Position numbers and translations under genes: made by a program | In this document: positions 1-48,670 of the stretch, one piece after another | How the letters are laid out: the number at the start of each line of letters is the position of its first letter | Numbering within the stretch: position 1 is the stretch's first letter | The notes under the pieces: generated by a model | Seen by the model: only the letters and a program-made list of their open reading frames with translations | Told to the model about the DNA's origin: nothing | Database searches by the model: none | DNA from: Bacteroidota bacterium | Lineage (GTDB): Bacteria > Bacteroidota > Bacteroidia > Palsa-965 | Reading direction: 5' to 3' | Assembly: GCA_006218065.1 (NCBI GenBank) | Contig: VBWE01000007.1 | Location: 1-64,000, forward strand | DNA length: 64,000 nucleotides

Positions 1-28
1 CGATAGCTATCGGGACCAGTACGTCGCA
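1..28 (+). tRNA. 3' end of a probable tRNA, cut by the window edge
   Basis: Bases 1-15 are the right part of the palindrome TCCCGATAGCTATCGGGA. They are followed by CCAGT (would be T-stem 61-65), ACGTCGC (acceptor 66-72) and A73, then a terminator. The same palindrome-CC junction occurs in three complete tRNAs at 47039, 47369 and 48067, so I infer another tRNA with the insert. The anticodon lies outside the window. A plain intergenic palindrome is the alternative. Confidence 0.5.
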
Positions 29-31
29 CAC

Positions 32-54
32 AAATCCGCTTCGGCGGATTTTTT
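32..54 (+). terminator. Rho-independent terminator
   Basis: A 7-bp stem AATCCGC/GCGGATT closes a TTCG tetraloop and runs into a T tract. It directly follows the presumed tRNA 3' end and would end that transcript. Confidence 0.8.
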
Positions 55-222: not shown

Positions 223-660
223 ATGAGAAGTATTGCGTTTCCGTTATTCGCTTTTTTGCTGGGCATTGCGGCTATTTTTTACACGGCATGCAACGGCTCG
301 AAGACGGAACCCAACCCGAACGATTCGTTGACAAAACAGGTCCAGCAGGAATTCGGACAGTTAGAAAACCTGCATAAAGAAATCCAAAGCTCGCACCTGG
401 CATGGGTGAACGAACATGCCACCGTAATGGGCAAAAGCGATGATTCGACTCATCTGCGCATCGAGCAGCAGCACCTGAAATTGATCGAAGAGGACGGCCA
501 GCTTGTGGACAAGCACAAAATGATGATTCAAAGTATACCGGCAGAAAGCACGGAAACCCGGAAGATGCTCGAAGAACTGCATAATTCGATCGCCCGGCTG
601 GAATCGGATCTGAAGAAAATTCAGGACGATCATGTCGAAATGAACAAGTCGCATCATTAA
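223..660 (+). CDS. small predicted lipoprotein with coiled coil
   Basis: This 145-residue protein has a hydrophobic N-terminus (residues 4-20) ending in a lipobox-like Y-T-A-C, so Cys23 would be lipidated and the protein anchored in a membrane facing the periplasm. The rest is charged and heptad-like, rich in Glu, Lys, Gln and His, with several histidines from residue 66 on, suggesting an extended alpha-helical coiled coil. I do not recognise a family. It stands alone: the left neighbour is a tRNA end with a terminator, and a terminator follows at 741. The start at 223 is chosen because it gives a complete signal sequence. Confidence 0.7.
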   Translation: MRSIAFPLFAFLLGIAAIFYTACNGSKTEPNPNDSLTKQVQQEFGQLENLHKEIQSSHLAWVNEHATVMGKSDDSTHLRIEQQHLKLIEEDGQLVDKHKMMIQSIPAESTETRKMLEELHNSIARLESDLKKIQDDHVEMNKSHH

Positions 661-816: not shown

Positions 817-1818
817 ATGCCTTCTTCACCCAAGCCCAGACCATTGCTGCTTTTTTATGTGCTGGTGACTTATGTTTTCCTGCAATTCGGGTGGTGGACG
901 TATATGCTCATCCAACTGAACAACGAGGTATATGCACAAAAGAGCCTGGTAATCAGGATGCAATCCACGCAGCTTCCCGTTATTCCCGGCACGGAACAAC
1001 TGGCGCTGCAGGAGGCCGAACTGAGCGACCGGCTGCACAAGCGCTGGCTGATGATACTGGGAGAAGGCGCAGTTTTTTCCGTGCTGCTGGTACTCGGGAT
1101 TATGCGGACACGGAGCAGTTTTAAGAAAGAAGCGGCGCTTGCGGAACAGCAAAAGAATTTTTTGCTTTCCGTTACGCACGAATTAAAGTCACCGCTGGCT
1201 TCGGCGCGGCTGCAGCACGAGACTTTGCTGCACCGGGAACTGCCTCGCGAAAAACAGAAAGAAATACTGGAGAGCGCCATCGAAGATATCGACCGGCTGC
1301 ATACGCTGGTGGAGAATATCCTGCTGGCTGCGCGGATAGATAATCATACCAACAGCCTGCATCCCGAGACCTGTGATTTTTCGAAGCTGGTTGAAGAACT
1401 TGCGGAGAAAAACGCACCCTCCATCCGCCGCACACATCCTTTTGAAATTACGCTGGAGCCGGGAATAGACGTCCGTGTGGATAAATTATCCTTCCCTTCC
1501 ATCCTGCTCAACCTGCTGGAAAATGCAGTAAAGTATTCACCGGCGGGAAGTGCAATCAGGATTTCGCTTGCAGTAAAGAACAACAAAATCATGCTTGCCG
1601 TGGCCGATCGCGGTACAGGAATACCCGGTGAGGATAAACTGAAAGTGTTCGACAAATTCTATCGCGCGGGGAGTGAAGAAACACGCAATACCAAAGGAAC
1701 CGGCCTGGGACTTTATATCGTAAAATCGCTTATCGACGCCCAGGGCTGGCAGATCGCAATCAAAGACAATCCCGGCGGGGGAACTGTTTTTGAAATTGAA
1801 ATACCGAAAGCAGTATGA
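817..1818 (+). CDS. membrane sensor histidine kinase
   Basis: A 333-residue two-component kinase that would sense an extracytoplasmic signal and pass phosphate to a response regulator. Two membrane segments (about 9-32 and 78-95) enclose a short periplasmic loop. The HisKA domain has the phosphoacceptor His121 in SVTHELKSPLASAR. The ATPase domain has the N box (LLENAVKYSP, Asn236), the G1 box (ADRGTGIP, Asp264) and the G2 box (KGTGLGLY, 293-300). No HAMP or PAS domain is seen. The stop overlaps the start of gpmI by four bases (ATGA), so the two are probably translationally coupled. No partner response regulator is adjacent. The signal is unknown. Confidence 0.9.
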   Translation: MPSSPKPRPLLLFYVLVTYVFLQFGWWTYMLIQLNNEVYAQKSLVIRMQSTQLPVIPGTEQLALQEAELSDRLHKRWLMILGEGAVFSVLLVLGIMRTRSSFKKEAALAEQQKNFLLSVTHELKSPLASARLQHETLLHRELPREKQKEILESAIEDIDRLHTLVENILLAARIDNHTNSLHPETCDFSKLVEELAEKNAPSIRRTHPFEITLEPGIDVRVDKLSFPSILLNLLENAVKYSPAGSAIRISLAVKNNKIMLAVADRGTGIPGEDKLKVFDKFYRAGSEETRNTKGTGLGLYIVKSLIDAQGWQIAIKDNPGGGTVFEIEIPKAV

Positions 1819-3317
1819 ATAAAAAAGCAATGCTGATTATCCTCGACGGATGGGGAATCGGAGATAAAACAAAATCGGACGCTATTGCGCACGCACGTAC
1901 GCCTTTCATGGATTACCTGCTGGCGAATTTCCCGCATGCCCGGCTGCGCACTTCCGGCGAAGACGTCGGTCTTCCCGAAGGGCAAATGGGCAACTCGGAA
2001 GTCGGACACCTGAATATCGGTGCGGGGCGCGTGGTTTACCAGGACCTGGTGAAGATCAACAAAGCCTGCCGCGAAAAAACGATCGACACGAATCCTGAAC
2101 TCGTAGCTGCGCTGACGTATGCGCGGCAAAACGGCAAAGCAGTCCACCTGCTGGGGCTGGTATCGGACGGCGGTGTGCATTCGTCGCAGGAACACCTGCA
2201 TCACCTGTGCTCGCTTGCAAAACAATACGGGCTGACGAAAATTTTTGTACATGCTTTCACGGACGGCCGCGATACTGATCCGCAAAGCGGGCTGGGCTAC
2301 ATCACGAAACTGGAGGAACATCTTTCAAAAACCACGGGAAAAATCGCGACGATCTGCGGACGTTATTACGCGATGGATCGTGACAAACGCTGGGAGCGCG
2401 TGAAACTCGCGTACGACCTGCTGACCAAAGGCGCCGGTGAAAAATCGACCGATGCGCGGACGGCCATGCGGCAATCATACTCCGCCGGAGTAACAGACGA
2501 GTTCATCAAACCCGTGCTGCTTGCTGAAGAAGGAATAATCCGGGAGAATGACGTGGTGATCTGTTTCAATTTCCGCACGGACCGCTGCCGTGAAATCACA
2601 CAGGCGCTCACGCAGCAGGATATGCCGGAACAAGGCATGCAGACTTTGCCGCTTTATTATGTTACAATGACGAATTACGATGACACGTTCAGGCATGTTC
2701 ACGTGATTTTCGACAAAGACAATTTAAGCGAGACGCTGGGTGAAATCGTTTCCCACGCGGGAAAGAAGCAGATCCGGATCGCGGAAACTGAAAAATACCC
2801 GCATGTTACTTTTTTCTTTTCCGGCGGGCGGGAAGAAAAGTTCGAAGGCGAAAAACGCATCCTTATTCCTTCGCCGAAAGTGGCTACGTATGATCTGCAG
2901 CCTGAAATGAGCGCGATCGAACTTACGGATGCCCTTGTTCCCGAACTTGAAAAAGGAGAAACGGATTTCGTTTGCCTGAACTTCGCCAACGCGGATATGG
3001 TGGGGCATACCGGCGTGTATGAAGCCGTGATCAAAGCGCTGGAAACCGTGGACTCCTGCCTGAAACGCGTGGTGGAAGCGGGACAGAAAAGCGGGTACTC
3101 TTTCATCATCATCGCCGACCATGGGAACGCGGATTATATGATCAATCCCGACGGAAGTCCGAATACGGCGCACACCACCAACCCGGTTCCGTGCATCCTG
3201 GTCGATACGCAGCATAAAAAAATTTCCGATGGCCGCCTGGCGGATGTCGCACCTACTTTGCTGAAGCTGCTCGGTCTTGCACAACCGGAAGTGATGACCG
3301 GGAAATGCCTGGTATAA
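1815..3317 (+). CDS. gpmI: 2,3-bisphosphoglycerate-independent phosphoglycerate mutase
   Basis: This glycolytic enzyme interconverts 3- and 2-phosphoglycerate in the cytoplasm through a phosphoserine intermediate and two Mn ions. The 500 residues are normal for the family. Visible motifs are the N-terminal metal site IILDGWGIG (Asp11), the phosphoacceptor Ser61 in GNSEVGHLNIGAGR, the substrate-binding FTDGRDTDP, and the C-terminal metal motif ADHGNADYM. It overlaps the upstream histidine kinase by four bases, which is an unusual partner for a glycolytic gene. A hairpin follows at 3324. Confidence 0.97.
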   Translation: MNKKAMLIILDGWGIGDKTKSDAIAHARTPFMDYLLANFPHARLRTSGEDVGLPEGQMGNSEVGHLNIGAGRVVYQDLVKINKACREKTIDTNPELVAALTYARQNGKAVHLLGLVSDGGVHSSQEHLHHLCSLAKQYGLTKIFVHAFTDGRDTDPQSGLGYITKLEEHLSKTTGKIATICGRYYAMDRDKRWERVKLAYDLLTKGAGEKSTDARTAMRQSYSAGVTDEFIKPVLLAEEGIIRENDVVICFNFRTDRCREITQALTQQDMPEQGMQTLPLYYVTMTNYDDTFRHVHVIFDKDNLSETLGEIVSHAGKKQIRIAETEKYPHVTFFFSGGREEKFEGEKRILIPSPKVATYDLQPEMSAIELTDALVPELEKGETDFVCLNFANADMVGHTGVYEAVIKALETVDSCLKRVVEAGQKSGYSFIIIADHGNADYMINPDGSPNTAHTTNPVPCILVDTQHKKISDGRLADVAPTLLKLLGLAQPEVMTGKCLV

Positions 3318-36613: not shown

Positions 36614-36630
36614 TCCGATAGCTATCGGGA
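36614..36630. repeat. GATAGCTATC palindrome copy
   Basis: TCCGATAGCTATCGGGA is the window's palindrome with one C missing. It is not inside a tRNA, unlike the copies at 47094, 47424 and 48123. Confidence 0.8.
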
Positions 36631-46320: not shown

Positions 46321-46393
46321 GGCCCATTAGTCAAATGGATAAGACACCGGTCTTTCAATCCGGAGGTGCCGGGTTCAATTCCCGCATGGACTA
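46321..46393 (+). tRNA. tRNA-Glu (TTC)
   Basis: The anticodon loop CTTTCAA gives TTC. The acceptor GGCCCAT/ATGGACT pairs except C3-A70 and one G-T. The D stem GTC/GAC is intact; 31-39 is a T-T mismatch and 49-65 a C-C mismatch. T loop TTCAATT. Discriminator A73, no encoded CCA. Several mismatches make it less canonical than its neighbours. Confidence 0.8.
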
Positions 46394-46501
46394 CTCAAAA
46401 TAAATCACCCTTGCTGTGGAATTAAAATTCCCGGCGCATCTTACGGATGAAGCATATCCGCAAAAGTTCTTTGAAAATACAAACGTCCATTCCAGTCACT
46501 C

Positions 46502-46558
46502 AGAAGCTGTTTGGAAATCATACCGGCAGGAAAATTCCGAAGGTTTGAAACAGCTTCT
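46502..46558. repeat. inverted repeat before tRNA-Ala
   Basis: AGAAGCTGTTT (46502-46512) is exactly complementary to AAACAGCTTCT (46548-46558) across a 35-base loop. It ends five bases before tRNA-Ala and might serve in RNA processing. Confidence 0.5.
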
Positions 46559-46563
46559 CAACT

Positions 46564-46636
46564 GGGGTCGAAGTACAGCCGGCCGTACACCTGTTTTGCA
46601 CACAGGAGGATGTGGGTTCAAATCCCACCGGCTCCA
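46564..46636 (+). tRNA. tRNA-Ala (TGC)
   Basis: Loop TTTGCAC gives TGC. The acceptor GGGGTCG/CGGCTCC, D stem GTAC/GTAC, anticodon stem CCTGT/ACAGG and T stem GTGGG/CCCAC are all paired. D loop contains GG, T loop TTCAAAT, A73. Position 8 is A instead of T, an odd base. Confidence 0.9.
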
Positions 46637-46668
46637 CACCTGTTTACCAGGCGTGTTTGGTTGGACGT

Positions 46669-46709
46669 ACCTGCCGGGTCAATGATGAAGCTCACATTGC
46701 CCGGCAGGT
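46669..46709 (+). other. long hairpin between tRNA-Ala and tRNA-Gly
   Basis: ACCTGCCGGG (46669-46678) and CCCGGCAGGT (46700-46709), with CAATG/CATTG inside, form a stem of about 15 bp with a ten-base loop. No T tract follows. It could be a processing signal or an RNA fold of its own. Confidence 0.6.
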
Positions 46710-46759
46710 TACCGAATCATGTTCCTGTGAGCCATACGACAAAACAGTATTGTGAAGAT

Positions 46760-46830
46760 GCAGGAATAGTTCAGAGGAAGAATGCTGCGCCTCCAACGCA
46801 GCGACCCGGGTTCGAGTCCTGGTTCCTGCT
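46760..46830 (+). tRNA. tRNA-Gly (TCC)
   Basis: Acceptor GCAGGAA/TTCCTGC and anticodon stem CTGCG/CGCAG pair perfectly; T loop TTCGAGT; discriminator T, as usual for tRNA-Gly. The anticodon loop is CCTCCAA, so position 33 is C instead of the nearly universal T. Confidence 0.85.
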
Positions 46831-46845
46831 CAGTAAATAAAACAA

Positions 46846-46918
46846 TGGAACGTCGTCCAGCGGTTCAGGACCATACTCTTACAAAGTAATGACGGGTGTT
46901 CAACTCACTCCGTTCCAA
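46846..46918 (+). tRNA. tRNA-Val (TAC)
   Basis: Loop CTTACAA gives TAC. Acceptor TGGAACG/CGTTCCA pairs fully, starting with T1-A72, which is more typical of tRNA-Gln. The anticodon stem has an A-A at 27-43. T stem GGGTG/CACTC, loop TTCAACT, A73. Confidence 0.8.
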
Positions 46919-46932
46919 CAAAACGAACAAAA

Positions 46933-47016
46933 ATGAAAACAACGAAGACAACAATTCAGCAAACCTGTAACGCGGGAAATAAAGATAAAGCGTGCAGGAA
47001 AAACGTAAACGCATAA
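46933..47016 (+). CDS. putative micro-ORF between tRNAs, 27 aa
   Basis: It encodes MKTTKTTIQQTCNAGNKDKA and seven more residues, basic, with two Cys. It fits exactly between tRNA-Val and tRNA-Gln. Presence in a tRNA spacer is suggestive only. Confidence 0.2.
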   Translation: MKTTKTTIQQTCNAGNKDKACRKNVNA

Positions 47017-47038
47017 ACTGAATTTCCCGGCAAAAATC

Positions 47039-47124
47039 TGCCGGGTCGTCTAAAGGCAGGACATCTGATTTTGAATCAGGCAATGCTGGTTCGTCCCGAT
47101 AGCTATCGGGACCAGCCCGGGCAA
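47039..47124 (+). tRNA. tRNA-Gln (TTG) with palindrome in the T loop
   Basis: Loop TTTTGAA gives TTG. Acceptor TGCCGGG/CCGGGCA pairs except G5-G68. The T stem is GCTGG/CCAGC. Its loop reads TTCG followed by the 18-nt palindrome at 47094-47111, instead of seven bases. Bases T54-G57 are kept; 58-60 are replaced, giving a 22-base loop. Confidence 0.85.
47094..47111. repeat. 18-nt palindrome in tRNA-Gln
   Basis: TCCCGATAGCTATCGGGA is perfectly self-complementary. In RNA it would form a seven-pair stem with an AGCT loop on top of the T stem. Confidence 0.95.
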
Positions 47125-47138
47125 CAAAACGAAAACAA

Positions 47139-47234
47139 ATGAAACGAATAGACAGACATAACGGGAAACCTGCAAATAACCGATTTGATCGGGTAATACT
47201 TGCAACAGATCCGGACCGATGGCCGTGCGCATGA
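47139..47234 (+). CDS. putative micro-ORF between tRNAs, 31 aa
   Basis: It encodes MKRIDRHNGKPANNRFDRVI and 11 more residues ending WPCA. It lies between tRNA-Gln and a terminator hairpin. No family is recognised. Confidence 0.25.
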   Translation: MKRIDRHNGKPANNRFDRVILATDPDRWPCA

Positions 47235-47255
47235 TTATGTGCCTACAGAAAAATC

Positions 47256-47289
47256 AGCCCGGTCTCAAAAAAAGAACCGGGCTTTTTTT
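47256..47289 (+). terminator. terminator-like hairpin inside the array
   Basis: AGCCCGG (56-62) and CCGGGCT (77-83) pair and seven T follow, ending two bases before tRNA-Asp. The same stem family is used at 45646. Confidence 0.75.
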
Positions 47290-47291
47290 AT

Positions 47292-47363
47292 GGTTCGTTA
47301 GCTCAAAGGTGGAGTTCCTGACTGTCTATCGGGAGGTTGAGGGTTCGAGTCCCTCACGAACCG
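47292..47363 (+). tRNA. tRNA-Asp (GTC)
   Basis: Loop CTGTCTA gives GTC. Acceptor GGTTCGT/ACGAACC and T stem GAGGG/CCCTC are perfect, T loop TTCGAGT, discriminator G as typical of Asp. It starts two bases after the hairpin's T tract. Confidence 0.92.
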
Positions 47364-47368
47364 CAAAA

Positions 47369-47454
47369 CGATCCGTAGTTCAACGGAAGAACAGTAGTCT
47401 CCGGCACTACAGGTGGAGGTTCATCCCGATAGCTATCGGGACCTTCCGGATCGA
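47369..47454 (+). tRNA. tRNA-Arg (CCG) with palindrome in the T loop
   Basis: Loop CTCCGGC gives CCG. Acceptor CGATCCG/CGGATCG, D stem GTTC/GAAC, anticodon stem GTAGT/ACTAC and T stem GGAGG/CCTTC are all paired. The T loop is TTCA followed by the palindrome at 47424-47441. Confidence 0.88.
47424..47441. repeat. 18-nt palindrome in tRNA-Arg (CCG)
   Basis: Identical to the copy in tRNA-Gln, and again between R57 and the CC of the T stem. Confidence 0.95.
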
Positions 47455-47470
47455 CGAAAAAAATTTAACA

Positions 47471-47542
47471 CGGAGTGTGGCGCAAGGGTAGCGTTCGTGT
47501 CTGATATGCACGCGGTTGCAGGTTCAAGTCCTGCCGCTCCGA
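47471..47542 (+). tRNA. tRNA-Ile (GAT)
   Basis: Loop CTGATAT gives GAT. Acceptor CGGAGTG/CGCTCCG pairs with one T-G. D stem GCGC/GCGT, T stem GCAGG/CCTGC, T loop TTCAAGT, A73. Confidence 0.85.
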
Positions 47543-47581
47543 CAAAAAAAGAAAACAATGGAACCTTATCCACCCATATAG

Positions 47582-47655
47582 CGGGGTGTAGCGCAGTTGG
47601 TCAGCGTACGTGCATCGGAAGCACGAGGTCGTCGGTTCGAATCCGGCCACCCCGA
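47582..47655 (+). tRNA. tRNA-Pro (CGG)
   Basis: Loop ATCGGAA gives CGG. Acceptor CGGGGTG/CACCCCG and T stem GTCGG/CCGGC are good, T loop TTCGAAT, A73. It is one of the most canonical members. Confidence 0.93.
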
Positions 47656-47714
47656 CACCAATAACGACAGGGAAACCTACCGAATTGTTCTTTGATTTTT
47701 CATGCATCGTGAAT

Positions 47715-47789
47715 TGGCTCGTAGCTCAACTGGCTGGCAGCACCGTCCTTTTAAGACGGGGGATATGGGTTCGAATCCCATCGGGCCAA
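47715..47789 (+). tRNA. tRNA-Lys (TTT)
   Basis: Loop CTTTTAA gives TTT. Acceptor TGGCTCG/CGGGCCA, anticodon stem CCGTC/GACGG, T stem ATGGG/CCCAT. The D stem has a C-C at 13-22. T loop TTCGAAT, A73. Confidence 0.9.
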
Positions 47790-47812
47790 CTTTTCATGCT
47801 GTGATTTTGTAC

Positions 47813-47885
47813 TGGCCTGTAGCTCAACCGTAGGAGCTGCACTCTTATACAGTGACGGATGCAGGTGCAACTCCTGCCAGGCCAA
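47813..47885 (+). tRNA. tRNA-Ile (TAT), rare anticodon
   Basis: Loop CTTATAC gives TAT, which would read AUA without lysidine. Acceptor TGGCCTG/CAGGCCA and T stem GCAGG/CCTGC are perfect, but 27-43 is G-A and the T loop is TGCAACT, so position 55 is G instead of T (no pseudouridine possible). A73. Confidence 0.8.
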
Positions 47886-47889
47886 CTTC

Positions 47890-47960
47890 GGGAATATAGC
47901 TCAATGGCAGAGCGGCCGCCTGTTAAGTGGTTGATGAATGTTCGATTCGTTCTGTTCCCG
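47890..47960 (+). tRNA. tRNA-Asn (GTT)
   Basis: Loop CTGTTAA gives GTT. Acceptor GGGAATA/TGTTCCC pairs with one T-G; D stem GCTC/GAGC; T stem GAATG/CGTTC; T loop TTCGATT; discriminator G as in Asn. Confidence 0.88.
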
Positions 47961-47969
47961 CAAATTACG

Positions 47970-48041
47970 CGGTCCGTAGCTCAATAGCAGAGCACCACTC
48001 TCATAAGGTGGATTGTGGTGGTTCAAGTCCACCCGGGCCGA
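47970..48041 (+). tRNA. tRNA-Met or Ile2 (CAT)
   Basis: Loop CTCATAA gives CAT. C1-G72 is paired and the anticodon stem lacks the three G-C pairs of initiator tRNA, so it is elongator Met or lysidine-modified Ile. The D loop has AG where GG is usual. T loop TTCAAGT, A73. Confidence 0.85.
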
Positions 48042-48066
48042 CTGGATGCAAAAATGAGATGAATAC

Positions 48067-48153
48067 TGACCTGTAGCTTAACGGAAGAGCGCGTCGTTAC
48101 GACCGACAGAGATGAAGGTTCGTCCCGATAGCTATCGGGACCTTTTGGGTCAG
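48067..48153 (+). tRNA. tRNA-Arg (ACG) with palindrome in the T loop
   Basis: Loop TTACGAC gives ACG. Acceptor TGACCTG/TGGGTCA pairs with two G-T; 27-43 is C-A. T stem GAAGG/CCTTT encloses TTCG and the palindrome at 48123-48140. Discriminator G. Confidence 0.85.
48123..48140. repeat. 18-nt palindrome in tRNA-Arg (ACG)
   Basis: Third complete tRNA copy, identical in sequence and position to those at 47094 and 47424. Confidence 0.95.
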
Positions 48154-48166
48154 CATAAATGCCATA

Positions 48167-48239
48167 CAGCCTGTAGCTCAACAGGAAGAGCAGTCCGCTT
48201 CTACCGGATCGGCTGAGGGTTCGAATCCTTCCGGGCTGA
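48167..48239 (+). tRNA. tRNA-Arg (TCT)
   Basis: Loop CTTCTAC gives TCT. Acceptor CAGCCTG/CGGGCTG, D stem GCTC/GAGC, T stem GAGGG/CCTTC, T loop TTCGAAT, A73. No insert. Confidence 0.9.
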
Positions 48240-48410
48240 CGAAGTAAAAAGATTTGAAATGAAATAAAGATTGTTTGAAGTAATGAAAGCTAAAAAGGAA
48301 AAGCTGCGATGAAAATTCGCTTCTCTCCCGGGGCATGGTACCTGTACCGGGAAAAGAAACGGAACGGATTCAAAAGCAATTCCGCCAGCAATCGTTGCGG
48401 ATTCGAATGC

Positions 48411-48480
48411 CGCCCGGTAGCTCAAACGAAAGAGCATCCCGCTTGTAAGGGAGGTGAAGGTTAAAGCCCTTTCCGGGCGG
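48411..48480 (+). tRNA. tRNA-Thr (TGT), degenerate
   Basis: TGT lies in an eight-base loop GCTTGTAA closed by only TCCC/GGGA; one base of the 3' stem seems lost. The T loop is TTAAAGC, so C56 is A. Acceptor CGCCCGG/CCGGGCG is perfect. It may be non-functional in translation. Confidence 0.7.
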
Positions 48481-48488
48481 CATATTAA

Positions 48489-48560
48489 GGACGAATAGCT
48501 CAGTTGGCAGAGCACCCCGTTGAAGGCGGGACAGCACTGGTTCGATCCCGGTTTCGTCCA
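48489..48560 (+). tRNA. tRNA-Phe (GAA)
   Basis: Loop TTGAAGG gives GAA. Acceptor GGACGAA/TTCGTCC, D stem GCTC/GAGC and T stem ACTGG/CCGGT pair; 27-43 is C-A. T loop TTCGATC, A73. Confidence 0.9.
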
Positions 48561-48574
48561 CAGAAAAAATAAAT

Positions 48575-48647
48575 GGTGTAGCTGGTGTAACGGTTAACAC
48601 GCCGGTTTGTGAATCCGGTAATAAGGGTTCAACTCCCTTGCTTCACC
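48575..48647 (+). tRNA. tRNA-His (GTG)
   Basis: Loop TTGTGAA gives GTG. The encoded G-1 pairs with C73, the identity mark of tRNA-His. D stem GTGT/ACAC; T stem AAGGG/CCCTT; T loop TTCAACT. T4-T69 and 31-39 (T-T) are mismatched. Confidence 0.88.
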
Positions 48648-48670
48648 CGAAAACTAAAAACAAATGAAAC

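Follow-up and report, generated by a model that had tools for sequence, protein, structure and literature searches.

The first 28 bases of the window (the whole stretch of DNA analysed, 64,000 nucleotides long) probably represent the 3' end of tRNA-Val(GAC) sequence that lies between folC and ORF1 and is parted from its 5' half by an assembly gap, and probably also one copy of a family of elements that targets tRNA genes in the Bacteroidota. The evidence comes from the end of another contig of the same assembly, from gene order in related genomes, and from a wider survey of the palindrome with which the window opens.

The 3' and 5' halves of tRNA-Val(GAC)

Positions 1–60 of the window read CGATAGCTATCGGGA CCAGT ACGTCGC A CAC, followed by AAATCCGC-TTCG-GCGGATTT and a run of T. 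The features at this edge, all on the + strand, are:

1..15, +, right 15 bases of the 18-bp palindrome TCCCGATAGCTATCGGGA, in the T-loop; the contig begins at palindrome base 4 (from the sequence)
16..20, +, T-stem 3' strand CCAGT, making 5/5 pairs with ACTGG at the end of contig C64 (from the sequence)
21..27, +, acceptor-stem 3' strand ACGTCGC of tRNA-Val(GAC), making 7/7 pairs with GCGACGT on C64; the Val-GAC gene of relative G008 has ...CCCGTACGTCCCAC
28..28, +, discriminator base A; no CCA follows in the DNA, which is true of most tRNAs in the genome (from the sequence)
32..54, +, intrinsic terminator AAATCCGC-TTCG-GCGGATTT and T-run (from the sequence and folding)
223..660, +, ORF1, a small lipoprotein-like protein, which opens the conserved block after tRNA-Val in relatives
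817..1818, +, sensor histidine kinase, synteny marker
1815..3317, +, gpmI, 2,3-bisphosphoglycerate-independent phosphoglycerate mutase, synteny marker

The first-pass annotation had described a window that opens inside the palindrome CGATAGCTATCG, followed by CCAGT, ACGTCGC, A and a TTCG-loop terminator, and the bases are as it gave them. The window opens inside the palindrome because contig C9 itself starts there: window position 1 is base 1 of this contig (136,946 bp; the source genome is 5.26 Mb in 81 contigs). The 5' half of the tRNA is therefore not directly readable, the gene being split by the assembly. Taken alone, the layout of a 3' end in positions 1–28 is weak evidence for a tRNA, because any 12 bases after GGGA would fit it and most exact copies of the palindrome lie outside tRNAs.

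The missing half is found on contig C64, which terminates in GCGACGTTAGCTCAGCTGGTTAGAGTATCACCTTGACATGGTGGGGGTCACTGG. This is the 5' half of a tRNA-Val(GAC), with acceptor strand GCGACGT, the sequence TTGACAT, anticodon GAC and T-stem strand ACTGG. Across the gap between C64 and C9, all seven acceptor pairs (GCGACGT/ACGTCGC) and all five T-stem pairs (ACTGG/CCAGT) can form; with 162 contig ends, 12 specified bases would fall in the right place by chance with a probability of about 1e-5. C64 and C9 do not overlap, and at least 7 bases between them are unseen (TTCGTCC by analogy). If an ordinary T-loop is used to join the contigs, ARAGORN recognises tRNA-Val(gac); if the palindrome is kept, it recognises no tRNA.

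The gene order exbB-tonB-folC-tRNA-Val-ORF1-HK-gpmI is found in relatives of the same family (G004, G006, G008, G010; loci L270, L271, L272, L275), in a set of four genomes in which one flanking gene is undetected in some and the tRNAs are inverted in G008. In the source genome, the genes from exbB to folC and tRNA-Val are at the right end of C64, and ORF1-HK-gpmI at the left end of C9. Independently of the pairing, synteny in these four relatives thus indicates that the end of C64 and the start of C9 are neighbours. The first-pass annotation had proposed that bases 1–28 are a tRNA 3' end and predicted, to their left, a 5' acceptor complementary to ACGTCGC and a T-stem strand ACTGG. Both partners are present at the end of C64, and synteny places C64 upstream; the prediction therefore holds on two independent lines of evidence.

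G008 retains an intact Val-GAC gene at the corresponding locus. In the source assembly, tRNA searches found no other and no complete Val-GAC gene, and the two Val-GAC half genes were not among the hits of a genome-wide search with a tRNA covariance model. A search of the genome for the pattern GCGACGT-N40-70-ACTGGTTC gave only two places, both non-tRNA; it missed Val-GAC because C64 stops at ACTGG, before TTC. Contig C16, which also begins with a full palindrome, was considered as the neighbour of C9 and rejected: its flank is the 5' part of a tRNA-Leu(TAA) that is intact at the start of C25.

Palindromes and GIY-YIG genes at tRNA loci

In the last kilobase of C64, a Val-TAC fragment with TCCCGACTTTCGTCGGGA in place of its anticodon arm comes first. 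It is followed by an intact Val-TAC and a GIY-YIG ORF with an apparent frameshift (one TGA). A second Val-TAC fragment comes next, with the palindrome CCCGGCTGAAAAGCCGGG in the anticodon arm, and then two copies of the Val-GAC 5' half with a second GIY-YIG ORF (about 95 aa) between them. Pfam PF01541 recognises the two ORFs at 40.6 and 51.2 bits, above its cut-off of 22.6; in a sequence search the PDB yielded no meaningful match to the GIY-YIG ORF. In G006 the corresponding interval has one intact tRNA-Val only, without such structure, an empty site that would be compatible with a free-standing homing endonuclease gene. There is no integrase in the roughly 1-kb C64 interval after folC, where the two GIY-YIG ORFs are the only ORFs of at least 60 aa; the gap between C64 and C9 is unseen. 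Of the seven small GIY-YIG matches in the source genome, four lie on C64 or on C41 (just downstream of tRNA-Ser(GCT)), and one more lies behind tRNA-Ala(GGC) on C12. At the C41 locus (L133, 145.2–145.8 kb), two GIY-YIG copies come after tRNA-Ser(GCT), together with a tRNA 3' end and terminator that are repeated; the palindrome there is a different one, GGTCGAC...GTCGACC.

Exact copies of TCCCGATAGCTATCGGGA number about 27 in the genome, and most are not in tRNAs. The form TCCCGA-N6-TCGGGA has 42 sites; those inspected are mostly intergenic, an interspersion like that of REP elements. The palindrome or a relative of it is also found in fragments of tRNA genes, each beside the intact gene: fragments of Ala(GGC), Pro and Leu(TAA) carry it in the D-loop, a fragment of Arg(CCG) in the anticodon loop, and fragments of Arg(TCT) and Pro in the T-loop. 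The intact counterpart of the Leu(TAA) fragment is the gene that starts C25, which has the same leader. Partial 5' copies of tRNA-Gly(GCC) and tRNA-Met in the same style stand beside intact genes at L142 (C16) and L151 (C78:2822-2967), one of them carrying another insert (TCCTCCTTCGCTTCGCTTCGGCGGA). A second repeat family of the source genome, GTTTAA-TCCCGATAGCTATCGGGA-TCCTYC, has shared flanks and is intergenic (L036, L038-L042, L044), and in the window a non-tRNA copy of the palindrome lies at 36616-36627, within CTCCCTCCGATAGCTATCGGGAGTGAAG.

Window positions 46321-48648 hold about 18 tRNA genes, which largely duplicate the housekeeping set; many are weak or mismatched, and the whole looks like a mobile or phage-type tRNA array. 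ARAGORN and Rfam find 15 tRNAs in this array (46.3–48.7 kb) and miss three, because TCCCGATAGCTATCGGGA sits in their T-loop. All three are on the + strand and were identified with ARAGORN after the palindrome was replaced by AAT, upon which they are called as Gln(ttg), Arg(ccg) and Arg(acg):

47039..47125, +, tRNA-Gln(TTG), palindrome at 47094-47111 in the T-loop
47369..47455, +, tRNA-Arg(CCG), palindrome at 47424-47441 in the T-loop
48067..48154, +, tRNA-Arg(ACG), palindrome at 48123-48140 in the T-loop

Housekeeping copies of all three are present elsewhere in the genome, and none of the three has an adjoining GIY-YIG gene or remnant. The suspicion raised in the first-pass annotation, that the palindrome insert may extend beyond this 47-kb array, proved well founded: tRNA fragments at other places in the genome, and in many Bacteroidota, carry it in the D-, anticodon or T-loop. 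The flanks of 36 palindrome sites in the genome, a few of them tRNA-derived, pair with each other better than permuted flanks (mean -8.1 against -6.5 kcal/mol; 38 of 10,000 permutations), which hints that the palindrome prefers hairpin loops.

A scan of public genomes for GTTCR-TCCCGA-N6-TCGGGA-C gave at least 118 stretches, most of them from Bacteroidota; the matches to this T-loop pattern from outside the phylum look like chance. Among the matches listed there are 136 T-loop copies, and 56 of these, spread over 41 loci, agree with the 3' end of an intact tRNA close by; the other 80 include chance matches and truncated loci. The matched tRNAs, again among the matches listed, are of eleven kinds, mostly Leu and Met. 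In every one of the 56 alignable copies listed, the intact tRNA is upstream and on the same strand; a GIY-YIG ORF stands between it and the palindrome in 12 and is absent from this position in 44. At L276 (Leu, four in tandem), L278 (Trp) and L280 (Phe) the palindrome occupies the D-loop or anticodon arm, and the remnants precede the intact gene; at L277 there are three Val remnants of this type in tandem, in a locus cut by a contig end. Fragments with a T-loop palindrome are downstream of the intact gene, and those with a D-loop or anticodon-arm palindrome mostly upstream. Among 395 genomes sampled from the class, 9 have the strict TAGCTA form in the T-loop (control, 0), which is therefore sporadic. 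Mucilaginibacter hurinus (L198) has one tRNA-Leu with five copies of T-loop palindrome, acceptor and terminator within the 500 bp behind it, a pattern like the ladder that segmental amplification would give.

The GIY-YIG ORFs have a consistent relation to the palindrome. Among the matches listed, the ORF is on the same strand as the palindrome in 23 of the 24 copies with a match within 2.5 kb. Five ORFs enter the T-loop and end GSSR-stop inside the palindrome (L159, L165 of the cultured relative Aequorivita vladivostokensis, L188, L229, L264), and others end 12–115 bp from it on the same strand. The ORF at L162 ends GSEHPDF-stop, read from the tRNA D-arm; it follows a sequence that by eye resembles the end of folC, and is possibly at the same site as the C64-C9 interval. 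A stop codon at palindrome bases 7-9 is found in 47 of 56 tRNA-linked copies and 32 of 80 others among the matches listed, an excess that is no demonstration of selection because one founder sequence dominates. In relatives, 18 of 65 small GIY-YIG loci have a tRNA within 300 bp, always on the same strand, compared with any tRNA at 1 of 30 loci for an HTH_3 control; members of the GIY-YIG subfamily represented by query giy4 mostly lie away from tRNAs. A group I intron was considered and rejected, since Rfam gives tRNAs only, and no intron at threshold, at L074, L162, L165, L264 and L138.

Readings of the left edge and of the element

The description of the left edge as another tRNA with the same T-loop palindrome holds for the tRNA 3' end, but needs qualification for the gene as a whole, which may be a duplicated 3' fragment, given the 56 of 56 alignable copies downstream of an intact tRNA. 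We incline to this reading, with some reserve: C9 would start in the remnant, and the intact Val-GAC would be begun by the last 5' half of C64 and finished in the gap. As 3' remnants with T-loop palindromes sit downstream of the intact gene, the last 5' half on C64 may begin such a gene, and the reading implies, with the same reserve, an intact ACTGGTTCGANTCCAGTACGTCGC between C64 and C9. It is possible, though we consider it doubtful, that the two contig ends instead form one full-length tRNA-Val(GAC), the only Val-GAC of the genome, with T-loop bases 58-60 replaced by the palindrome and a direct ACTGGTTCGTCCCGATAGC junction to the last 5' half on C64. Such a gene would be inactive, with Val-TAC reading all valine codons, or would give a tRNA with an extended T-arm. 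C64 does end exactly at ACTGG and C9 begins inside the palindrome, no Val-GAC is found elsewhere in the assembly, and full-length tRNAs with a T-loop palindrome exist (the three in the array, L197, L201-L203 and L232, the last being a similar tRNA-Val with the same leader CCTTCCCG). This form is however in the minority, all 56 alignable T-loop copies among the matches listed having a separate intact tRNA upstream; an intact Val-GAC is kept at the same locus in G008, and duplicated halves in the gap would themselves account for the contig break. That the left edge is a non-tRNA, intergenic copy of the palindrome followed by an ordinary terminator is very improbable. Most exact copies in the genome are indeed of this kind and the 3' half alone is weak evidence, but the complementarity of all 12 bases at the contig end where they were expected, the absence of the GAC anticodon elsewhere and the synteny all argue against a chance resemblance.

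Given the observed identity of the two halves, the synteny, the palindromes in tRNA loops with their uniform orientation (56 of 56 among the matches listed), the proximity of GIY-YIG genes and the ORFs that end in the palindrome, the best reading of the left edge is as a putative remnant of a mobile GIY-YIG element that targets tRNA genes and keeps one intact tRNA. We hypothesise that a small GIY-YIG gene is inserted in or beside a tRNA gene, and that the leftover tRNA fragment has its loop replaced by the CCCGA...TCGGG palindrome. The GIY-YIG protein would cut the tRNA gene, and repair would copy in the element together with part of the tRNA, with one full tRNA remaining; the nuclease would in this way drive tRNA duplication. 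The palindrome would cap the remnant, supplying the stop codon of the ORF, and the remnant may be non-functional or immune to re-cutting.

In its most general form the proposal is tentative, with a chance a little short of even: a class of mobile elements in the Bacteroidota, consisting of a GIY-YIG ORF and a palindrome, would target tRNA loops specifically and always restore one intact tRNA, would use duplicated tRNA sequence and palindrome to end its own coding region (GSSR-stop, GSEHPD-stop), and would leave tandem palindrome-capped remnants, the solitary palindromes of the array having moved in trans. Against this mechanism stand the unread C64-C9 junction, the many genomic palindromes that are intergenic and unrelated to tRNA, the 44 of 56 alignable T-loop copies listed that lack an intervening GIY-YIG gene, the three array tRNAs with neither such a gene nor a remnant at their side, and the giy4 subfamily. 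As an alternative, the palindrome might be a REP-like or MITE-like hairpin, inserted into any hairpin loop by a housekeeping or IS transposase, with the GIY-YIG genes as independent passengers that also favour tRNA loci. Several non-tRNA copies in the loops of other hairpins, flanks that pair better than permuted ones, and the array copies without a GIY-YIG neighbour are in keeping with such an inserter. It is nevertheless unlikely, since the palindrome contains the stop codon of five GIY-YIG ORFs, further ones end 12–115 bp away on the same strand, and a fixed orientation to the intact tRNA is not expected of a simple hairpin inserter.

Relation to known systems

Rickettsia palindromic elements are short interspersed palindromes that form hairpins and invade genes or spacers. 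REP elements are likewise short interspersed palindromes that fold into hairpins (PMC3733652). The elements described here differ from both in their bias to tRNA loops, their fixed orientation to the intact tRNA and their GIY-YIG neighbour. Integrative elements use tRNA 3' ends as attachment sites, restoring the host tRNA and leaving a tRNA 3' fragment at the far side. Here, in contrast, there are only GIY-YIG ORFs, with no integrase in the roughly 1 kb seen, and the remnant contains a palindrome.

The nearest studied case is SegB, a free-standing GIY-YIG homing endonuclease of T-even phages. Its gene lies near tRNA genes, and a segment containing a tRNA is amplified in tandem through recombination that depends on the nuclease and leaves the tRNA functional (PMC13096335). 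A small GIY-YIG gene adjoining tRNA genes is common to both. Unlike SegB, the present genes are on bacterial chromosomes, their ORFs are very small (about 95 aa) and no phage context is seen; moreover the remnant has an 18-bp palindrome in its loop, and the tRNA remnants are stereotyped as 3' or 5'. Group I introns with endonuclease ORFs are reported from bacterial tRNA genes (PMC3984707). They share an endonuclease ORF tied to a tRNA gene, but here the tRNA is duplicated, not spliced, and no intron is found at the Rfam threshold.

We found no description of palindrome/GIY-YIG tRNA elements in the open-access literature, by subject or by sequence, although absence there is no proof of novelty; the text of a 2006 survey of the GIY-YIG superfamily mentions neither Bacteroidetes nor palindromes (PMC1564403). 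Palindrome-capped tRNA remnants with a GIY-YIG gene look like a little-known kind of tRNA-targeting mobile DNA. If the mechanism is correct, phage SegB would have a counterpart on bacterial chromosomes: a minimal nuclease element, well under 1 kb in size, resident in essential tRNA genes and harmless to them. The mechanism would also explain the tRNA fragments and broken tRNA-proximal contigs in Bacteroidota assemblies, and the small GIY-YIG genes just downstream of Bacteroidota tRNAs, where tRNA remnants may have been mis-annotated, and would provide a directly testable system for the choice of tRNA loops by small nucleases.
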